DNA from: Pseudomonadota bacterium
Lineage (GTDB): Bacteria; Desulfobacterota; WTBG01; JAPLJA01
Length of the DNA: 64,000 nucleotides
Assembly (NCBI GenBank): GCA_026388815.1
Contig: JAPLJA010000033.1
Coordinates: 1 to 64,000, forward strand
Reading direction: 5' to 3'
Both the position numbers and the translations under genes were made by a program. The first letter of the stretch is position 1. The number at the start of each line of letters is the position of its first letter. Below the pieces are notes generated by a model. The model did no database searches. It saw nothing but the letters and a program-made list of their open reading frames with translations, and was not told the origin of the DNA. Below are positions 62,421 to 64,000 of the stretch, piece after piece.

Positions 62421-62495
62421 GAGTTCAGGAGTGGGAGAGTCAGGGAGTTTTTCATAGAGCTCTTGAACTCCGCAACTCGCTAACTCCGTAACTAA
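62421..62495. repeat. Intergenic repeat of gagtt/aactcc words
   Basis: gagttcaggagtgggagagtcagggagtt ... aactccgcaactcgctaactccgtaact. Confidence 0.6.
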
Positions 62496-62505
62496 TGATT
62501 TATTT

Positions 62506-63234
62506 ATGGATCAGAATACTTTAATACTCATACCCGCCTTTAATGAGGAGAAAAATATTAAACAGGTAATCTCCGGTATAAAGCAACTCTGGCCGGAAAC
62601 ACATATTCTGGTTGTAAATGACGGTTCCAGAGATGATACAGCTTCAGTTGCTCTGAAGATCGGTGGAGAGGTGATCAGTCTTCCTTTTAACTTAGGCTAT
62701 GGTGTGGCCTTACAGACCGGTTATAAGTATGCTATAAACAAGGACTATAAATATCTTATCCAGATGGATGGGGATGGACAGCACGACCCTGCTTATATAG
62801 ATGACCTGCTTAAAGTGGTTACATTGAACGAGGCAGATGTGGCCATTGGTTCAAGATTCTCTTCCGAGGAGAAAAGGGGTACCTACAGGGCGGGATTTTT
62901 CAAGAAGATAGGCATGAAGTTGTTTGGCCTGATTACTTCCATCCTCATCGGTCAGAAGGTTACTGATCCAACTACTGGTTACCAGGCGATGAATAGAAGG
63001 GTCTTAGAATTTTTTGTAAGTGATATCTATCCAGTGGATTTCCCAGATGCAGATGTCCTCATTATGCTCCATCGGGCAGGTTTTAGAATCAGAGAAGTGC
63101 CTGTGGCTATGCACCAGAGCGTAAACAACAGGTCTATGCACCGCGGCCTGGTTCCTCTCTACTATGTGTTCAAGATGTTTCTCTCGATATTTGTGGAACT
63201 GCTGCGCAAGATGCCGAGGAGGGAAGTACAATAA
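62506..63234 (+). CDS. Glycosyltransferase family 2 (DPM1-like)
   Basis: TLILIPAFNEEKNIKQVISGIKQLWPETHILVVNDGSRDDT; QMDGDGQHDPAYI. Confidence 0.95.
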   Translation: MDQNTLILIPAFNEEKNIKQVISGIKQLWPETHILVVNDGSRDDTASVALKIGGEVISLPFNLGYGVALQTGYKYAINKDYKYLIQMDGDGQHDPAYIDDLLKVVTLNEADVAIGSRFSSEEKRGTYRAGFFKKIGMKLFGLITSILIGQKVTDPTTGYQAMNRRVLEFFVSDIYPVDFPDADVLIMLHRAGFRIREVPVAMHQSVNNRSMHRGLVPLYYVFKMFLSIFVELLRKMPRREVQ

Positions 63235-63250
63235 AAGTCATGCGTCAAAC

Positions 63251-63462
63251 GGTTGGGCAGCTGGTCTCGGTAGACGTAAAGGGTTATGGGTCCACGCAAC
63301 CGATTAACGATAGACGAAACGAGCCTCGCAACCGTATAACGAATAACTTTTTAAAAGGTTGCGCAGCTGGTCTCGGTAGACGTAAAGGGTTATGGGTCCA
63401 CGCAACCGATTAACGATAGACGAAACGAGTCGCGCAACCGTATAACGAATAACTTTTTAGAA
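63251..63462. repeat. Two tandem 106-bp repeat units
   Basis: Units start at 63251 and 63357 with near-identical sequence; each holds an 83-bp core ending ...cgcaacc plus 23-bp spacer gtataacgaataactttttaRaa. Confidence 0.9.
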
Positions 63463-63943
63463 GGTTGCGCAGATGGTCTCGGTAGATGTTGAACATATAT
63501 GGATGAAGTAAAAAAACCAATAAGGAGTTTTCACGATCTGGAGGTATACCAAAGTACCTATGAAGCAATGCTAACAGTGTTTAAAAATATTTTGCCAAAG
63601 CTGCCTAAGGAAGAAGAATATGACCTGAAGGATCAACTCCGCCGTTCAGCAAAAGCGATCCCGCGGTTAATAGCTGAGGGACATTCTAAAAGGCATCAGA
63701 AAAGGGGTTTTCAGAAATACCTCGATGATGCAATGACTGAATCGAACGAAACCATAGTTTCCATAACACAAGCTCGTGACCTGTACGGAAGTTGTGTTGA
63801 TGTCACTTTGTGTAATGAGCTGATTAATATCTATGATAAAACGAGCAGACAGTTGTATAATTTTTCTGTAGCCTGGACTAAGTTCAATGAACGCAAGGAG
63901 TCCACGCAACCGATTAACGATAGACGAAACGAGTCGCGCAACC
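63463..63943 (+). mobile_element. Candidate 481-bp element with 8-bp terminal inverted repeats carrying a four-helix-bundle ORF
   Basis: GGTTGCGC at 63463-63470 and GCGCAACC at 63936-63943; the last 44 bp (63900-63943) are identical to the end of the tandem-repeat core at 63357-63439. Confidence 0.6.
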
Positions 63944-63948
63944 TTTAA
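63499..63948 (+). CDS. Four-helix-bundle protein (S23/23S rRNA IVS-encoded, bAvd-like family)
   Basis: IRSFHDLEVYQSTYEAMLTVFKNI...LKDQLRRSAKAIPRLIAEGHSKRHQKRGFQKYLDDAMTESNETI; C-terminal STQPINDRRNESRNL is encoded by repeat sequence. Confidence 0.9.
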   Translation: MDEVKKPIRSFHDLEVYQSTYEAMLTVFKNILPKLPKEEEYDLKDQLRRSAKAIPRLIAEGHSKRHQKRGFQKYLDDAMTESNETIVSITQARDLYGSCVDVTLCNELINIYDKTSRQLYNFSVAWTKFNERKESTQPINDRRNESRNL

Positions 63949-64000
63949 TTACGATTAACGGGTATTTAGAACGATGCCACTGAGGCAAAAAATCTTCGTC

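Follow-up and report, generated by a model that had tools for sequence, protein, structure and literature searches.

An S23 gene between inverted arms as the probable cognate gene of a small hairpin element

S23/IVP proteins are common in environmental bacteria, and the family has had a solved structure since 2006 and has no assigned function. In the window, the 64,000-nt stretch of DNA analysed here (positions 1 to 64,000 of contig JAPLJA010000033.1), an S23 ORF lies close to the right end inside a unit with terminal inverted repeats, next to two short copies of the same unit which carry no ORF. The original prediction, made from the letters of the window, took this ORF as cargo of the repeat-bounded element. 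It raises the question of whether the S23 ORF is a passenger of the repeat or the gene to which the repeat belongs.

Three tandem units separate a glycosyltransferase gene from a DUF2304 gene in the window: two ORF-less 83-bp hairpins and one 481-bp copy with the S23 ORF, all on the forward strand. Sequence comparison and RNA folding delimit the two short copies, which form 106-bp tandem units (63247-63352 and 63353-63458) with a mutual identity of 96%. Unit 1 occupies 63245-63333 with its 83-bp core at 63251-63333, and its outer GTCAAACGGTTG, starting at about 63247, is common to other elements. It is followed by a 23-nt spacer (63334-63356, GTATAACGAATAACTTTTTAAAA), in which GTATAACGAATAAC is similar to the sequence that flanks other elements on the outer 3' side (CGAATAACTAATAAC), by the 83-bp core of unit 2 (63357-63439) and by a second 23-nt spacer (63440-63462). 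Unit 3 is the full-length S23 element of 481 bp (63463-63943, GGTTGCGC...GCGCAACC). Its GGTTGCGC/GCGCAACC ends are perfect 8-bp inverted repeats which extend to 21-22 bp at 76-82% complementarity, and the 5' terminal arm (63463-63481) pairs with the 3' terminal arm (63925-63943), with changes on both sides among related elements. The 5' end shared with the short units corresponds to 63463-63489 in unit 3, and the 44-bp terminal segment of unit 3 (63900-63943) matches unit 2 at 100% identity and unit 1 at 95%. The short units retain CGTAAAGGGTTATGG, which is similar to the sequence that other elements with an ORF have as leader and start codon (CGTAGAGCGGTTATGGAT) and is fused to the 3' end, as expected from internal deletion. 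Both 83-bp cores fold end to end as RNA: the fold of unit 1 covers the entire unit (-25.6 kcal/mol, z -1.3), and unit 2 folds on both strands (-31.5 and -30.2 kcal/mol, z -3.7 and -3.6).

The S23 ORF (63499-63948, 149 aa) is complete. The terminal repeat codes for its C-terminus (..STQPINDRRNESRNL), and its stop codon (63946-63948) lies just beyond GCGCAACC. Thus the anatomy given in the original prediction, two tandem units with 83-bp cores, a third copy with a 149-aa ORF, perfect 8-bp terminal repeats, a repeat-encoded C-terminus and a stop just outside, was confirmed in all coordinates and identities. The ORF is above the curated cut-offs of both family models, PF05635 (E 2.5e-18, 66.7 bits against 33.8) and TIGR02436 (E 1.6e-14, 54.1 against 24), and the AlphaFold2 model of the monomer has four helices (pLDDT 87.9) with a disordered repeat-encoded C-terminus, so that the predicted S23-type four-helix bundle was also borne out. 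The best solved matches by Foldseek were the S23-family structures 2gsc and 2rld, with TM-scores to target of 0.75-0.88. The first of them is the S23 protein XCC0516 of Xanthomonas, reported to form a homopentameric ring (PMC4990558). A profile search gave no match between the window protein and the bAvd family (PF22296), and other S23 proteins matched it weakly (E 2e-5 and 4e-4, under the Pfam cut-off); the kinship with Avd that had been proposed is therefore indirect and does not extend to the window protein itself. The analysis turned up no catalytic protein for these elements. To our knowledge S23 has no catalytic motif, so the autonomy of the element is unproven.

The upstream host gene encodes a family 2 glycosyltransferase (GT2, 62506-63234, PF00535 E 2e-26), and the element block starts about 10-16 nt past its stop codon. 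The downstream host gene DUF2304 starts at 63974 and runs past the end of the window (63974-64000 in the window, 63974-64357 in the contig, PF10066 E 9e-27). In four relatives, all of the same class or phylum and compared at the level of gene arrangement, GT2 and DUF2304-type genes adjoin with no space for the element block, and thus the block of about 740 bp is best read as an insertion into the operon. Degenerate period-7-like repeats (GAACTCCGCAACTCGCTAACTCCGTAACT) that are not accompanied by an S23 ORF were also present at 62440-62500, directly in front of the glycosyltransferase gene.

Relatives of the window protein (60-82% protein identity) were found at 29 loci in a scan of GTDB genomes, on contigs assigned to many phyla. 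Most of the source genomes are metagenome assemblies, in which the phylum label of any single contig may be wrong. The DNA similarity runs past the ORF to the same ends, which define a unit of 466-496 bp in 17 loci with well-defined ends from many phyla (genomes labelled Deltaproteobacteria/Desulfobacterales, Chloroflexota, Omnitrophota, Planctomycetota, Doudnabacteria and others), leaving no room for a transposase. The stop codon of the ORF is often 5-6 nt past the 3' end of the element. Copies with internal deletions were identified at 258 bp (L030) and 297 bp (L031), at five loci (L003, L008, L013, L015 and L026) copies of about 80-110 bp without an ORF lie close to copies with one, and one ORF-less relative (L002) lies elsewhere in the window's own genome, which has ten S23 matches and an estimated contamination of about 5%. 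The dispersed copies with and without the four-helix ORF that had been anticipated were thus found, both in this genome and in other phyla.

Pairing of the two ends of this subtype gave 85.6% standard pairs, whereas slid controls were about 30% paired. Changes on both sides were present in 10 of 19 end pairs, with 33 such cells against 13.6 in shuffles. In nine close elements the two ends were 84% and 80% identical against 57% at the four-fold degenerate sites of the ORF, and they were more conserved than these sites in 36 of 36 pairs. Chance is not the source of the ends of unit 3, because relatives of the ORF from other phyla are flanked by these ends with the spacing unchanged, and because the arms co-vary. 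As judged from these comparisons, the window unit is a real bounded element with conserved ends, in agreement with the original prediction, and its complementary and co-varying ends could pair into a stem that loops out the ORF. In two Cloacimonadota contigs (L015 and L013), complete hairpins of the window subtype that lack an ORF are found next to S23 ORFs; G167, the genome of L015, has 29 S23 matches.

Arms are not limited to the window subtype. We identified S23 ORFs in 87 of 148 genomes of the window's phylum, with 0-15 copies per genome, and in 0 of 14 control genomes. Inverted repeats with a score of 18 or more bracket 84 of the 108 S23 ORFs with adequate flanks (78%), compared with 9 of 323 neighbouring genes (2.8%, P 3e-56). 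This sample covers the better-scoring family matches of one phylum, with start codons and arms assigned by script, and the control is conservative because it includes direct neighbours of S23 elements which have one flank in common with them. In genomes of other phyla, reached via the loci, 25 of 51 S23 ORFs had arms against 7 of 92 control genes. Clear arms are missing in 24 of the 108 S23 ORFs and in about half of those in other phyla.

The arms are usually degenerate 7-nt repeats with a median length of 39 nt; the best flank period was 7 for 78 of the 108 ORFs, and 58 arms had 56 distinct consensus heptads. The arm word was common to 39% of protein pairs at 60-75% identity, always in the same polarity, and to 0% of pairs below 50% identity, and the pairs with a common word mostly had different gene contexts. 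Complementarity of the arms went beyond the common word (mean score 23.0 against 18.0 after unit shuffling, P<0.05 in 14 of 57 elements), so by this test the common word explains much, yet not all, of it. Arm copy number shifts quickly between species, and at L048/L100 the 5' arm was altered with no matching change in the 3' arm, which means that the arms are not strictly maintained. Strict correction of the arms by copying was rejected from these one-arm changes and the shuffle test. Mismatches between arms were G.U 45 against A.C 42 in one set and G.T 129 against A.C 185 in another; with no excess of G.U, selection on RNA pairing was ruled out as the main cause of complementarity, and a better fit is that the word is recognised in both arms or that one arm is copied from the other.

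Some S23 ORFs had other kinds of repeats. Three elements of one genus (L104, L112 and L113) have a near-palindromic word of period 9 (about CNGYTYRAA), with copy numbers differing between species. On the Pseudanabaena galeata plasmid pPg_01 (L177), an S23 ORF between cas6 and cas4 has long heptad arrays (AGCTAAA/AGCCAAA) which are direct and not inverted, and a plasmid copy in Oscillatoria (L182) also has direct rather than inverted arrays.

The S23 ORFs occupy a particular position in host operons. The 5' arm began within -10 to +12 nt of the upstream stop codon in 41 of 66 cases (median 4.5 nt), and the 3' arm was less often near the next start (21 of 74). Of the S23 ORFs, 76 pointed the same way as both of their neighbours and one ran against both. 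The sense orientation could reflect survivorship of expressed copies instead of targeting, and the stop-codon proximity could likewise reflect survivorship of harmless insertions.

Comparison of species within one genus revealed different alleles at the same sites. At the first site, one genome (G033) has the full element and another (G133) is empty, with flanks of 98-99% identity; the host stop codon is TAG with the element and TAA in the empty allele. At the second site, G054 has the full element, G121 only the ORF-less hairpin, and G149 and G089 are empty. At the third site, an S23 element is present in G025, and G097 has a different heptad hairpin, which lacks an ORF. Empty sites, expected for a mobile element, were therefore found for the wider S23 family, together with an ORF-less allele at one of them. 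Two concordant empty alleles suggest that the empty state is probably ancestral, i.e. that the element was gained and not precisely lost, and these site comparisons point to mobility of S23 elements. No target-site duplication was visible in the two aligned empty sites of the wider family.

The first alternative is an ordinary non-autonomous DNA transposon (MITE) moved by an unrelated host transposase, with the S23 ORF as a passenger captured by one MITE. The window unit is like MITEs and IS elements in being bounded, in its terminal inverted repeats and in its internal-deletion derivatives, and arm complementarity with no wobble excess is also what a DNA element would have. But most S23 ORFs have arms, and the sequence of the arms varies by S23 subfamily and tracks the protein, giving dozens of different end words which are beyond recognition by one transposase. 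S23 elements further differ from MITEs and IS in having no transposase within, no visible target-site duplication, a stop-codon position and a strong sense orientation, and we consider this alternative improbable. Of the MITE-style reading made originally, the part on internal-deletion derivatives is upheld by the 83-bp units and by L030 and L031, whereas the classical transposon part is not.

A retroelement is the second alternative: S23 would recruit a reverse transcriptase, as Avd does in diversity-generating retroelements, which copies the transcript, and fold-back of the cDNA would make the inverted arms. It would account for the sense orientation within transcription units, for the presence inside rRNA and for arms which are partly palindromic beyond the common word, and the weak resemblance of some S23 proteins to bAvd, a four-helix bundle like S23, is in its favor. 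However, a match to RVT_1 was absent in 49 of the 87 S23-positive genomes, some of which consist of a single contig and have 5-6 copies (P 0.17 for the association), and a dedicated reverse transcriptase for S23 elements was ruled out on this basis; judged by gene content, a reverse transcriptase in the genome is not required. The window differs from a diversity-generating retroelement, in which a reverse transcriptase with template and variable repeats adjoins an Avd-like gene, in having no reverse transcriptase beside the ORF (the single RVT_1 match of its genome is on another contig) and no bAvd match from its protein. The probability that we leave to a retroelement is small. Carriage by phage was also ruled out, since no phage record had a relative of the window protein, and plasmid matches to this protein were remote and mostly cyanobacterial.

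S23 could also be a non-mobile host regulator of its own operon, which acts via the flanking arms as operators like TRAP-type ring proteins on repeated RNA motifs, and presence or absence would then be gene loss. The pentameric ring of 2gsc (PMC4990558), the repeated words directly upstream of the start codon, the operon position and a dN/dS of 0.04-0.24 in related pairs of S23 ORFs are all compatible with such a role. Patchy copies with unrelated neighbour genes, from none to 15 in a genome, are not, nor are closely similar copies in different phyla, insertion in 23S rRNA and empty alleles at 98-99% flank identity, and there is little chance that this explanation is right.

The STRR of cyanobacteria are heptameric repeats. 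That the arms arise at intergenic sites as a side effect of polymerase slippage and fold-back, through STRR-like heptad growth, with S23 genes tolerating or hitchhiking on them, would agree with the rapid changes of arm copy number and with heptad arrays in Xanthomonas and Nostoc (PMC4692102) and in Beggiatoaceae (PMC4679880) with no reported S23 link, but is hardly credible because only 2.8% of neighbouring genes have arms on both sides, the arm word tracks the S23 subfamily and the subtype ends are conserved above four-fold sites.

Judged by the same dN/dS values, the S23 ORFs are under purifying selection. Arms on 78% of S23 ORFs, a word common to related proteins and this selection make the ORF and its ends look cognate. 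The original description of the ORF as cargo of a terminal-repeat element thus stands in its anatomy, and the word cargo is probably wrong. We conclude that small hairpin elements have S23 ORFs as their cognate genes and that rRNA intervening sequences are one landing site of these elements. The whole explanation, that S23 elements are widespread small mobile hairpin elements with the S23 ORF as the defining gene and with S23 aiding their spread, has a probability of about 0.6 in our estimate. Its element-level part, by which the S23 ORF unit of the window is a member of this class, is highly probable, and mobility driven by S23 is tentative, at somewhat less than even odds.

By this explanation, each element would consist of an S23 ORF between two inverted arms, which are usually degenerate 7-nt word arrays specific to the S23 subfamily and which in the window subtype would be the GGTTGCGC/GCGCAACC ends. 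Placed at or just past the host stop codon in sense orientation, the element would probably be co-transcribed with the operon and may not need a promoter. As RNA or extruded DNA it could fold into a self-contained stem that holds the ORF in its loop, and this may make it nearly harmless in operons and, as an intervening sequence, in 23S rRNA. The S23 ring protein might bind its cognate arms and promote copying or insertion with host enzymes, and internal deletion would give ORF-less hairpins. We infer four steps of this scheme: gain rather than loss, co-transcription, binding of the arms by S23, and S23 as the cause of mobility. Recognition of the arms is suggested by the match of the word to the protein subfamily, and the argument for spread aided by S23 comes entirely from site comparisons. 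The median arm of 39 nt is about five to six heptads and would match a pentameric ring in which every subunit takes one word, which is speculation, as arm lengths vary. A bolder form of the explanation seems rather unlikely: an autonomous mobile class of about 500 bp with no recombinase or reverse transcriptase of its own, whose ring protein reads the heptad code of the arms and places copies at stop codons of transcribed genes, with its landing sites and remains represented by rRNA intervening sequences and by heptameric repeats such as those of Xanthomonas and Nostoc.

A close known system is the 23S rRNA intervening sequence (IVS), whose stem is cut by RNase III. The IVS of Coxiella burnetii with an S23p ORF was described as a selfish element, for which transposition was suggested earlier (PMC4990558), and IVP ORFs are present in rRNA insertions of CPR (PMC11270868). 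The window unit is like them in the protein family and in an ORF within a predicted stem of inverted ends. It differs in sitting between GT2 and DUF2304 and not in a 23S rRNA gene; an Rfam scan of the last 2 kb of the window gave no rRNA match at the unit, and a single weak match, far under the gathering score, was taken as chance. The S23 elements studied here also differ from the IVS by their place in protein-coding operons, their many copies, their arms matched to the protein subfamily, and their empty and ORF-less alleles at non-rRNA sites. We accordingly class the window unit as an S23 element that is like an IVS but lies outside rRNA. On the plasmid AZO_p2 of Azospirillum lipoferum 4B (L179, 13683-15355), we identified an S23 ORF with heptad arms, absent from the gene table of the plasmid, inside a plasmid-borne 23S rRNA gene. 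A heptad-armed S23 ORF in LSU rRNA ties the classical intervening sequences to the same class.

Heptameric repeats have been described in several lineages: GGGAATC in Xanthomonas with 70-75 inverted pairs at a mean of 28 nt past the upstream ORF, GGGGA(C/T)T in Nostoc (PMC4692102), and TAACTGA in Beggiatoaceae, Cyanobacteria and Bacteroidetes, for which horizontal transfer was suspected (PMC4679880). They resemble the S23 arms as degenerate, intergenic 7-nt tandem repeats, and the closest solved structure to the window protein is the Xanthomonas protein XCC0516. They differ in that neither PMC4692102 nor PMC4679880 mentions a link with S23 ORFs, and no such link was found in the literature covered, the open PMC texts (bioRxiv not included). 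If hairpin elements have S23 as their cognate gene, three so far unconnected observations would unite: the S23 ORFs of rRNA intervening sequences, the S23 genes dispersed between other genes, and the heptameric repeats of intergenic regions. The arms of S23 genes in general suggest that this large family of proteins is part of a class of tiny genome parasites. If this is true, the function of S23 would be open to direct test, and spread would be achieved with a single small protein with no known catalytic site.

A separate ORF-less heptad hairpin (AGCTTTC / AGCTGAAAGC) is present at 2750-2822 on the forward strand of the window. Its AGCTTTC word is also that of another S23 element (L035) at position 70354 of the same contig, 6.4 kb past the S23 ORF described here.
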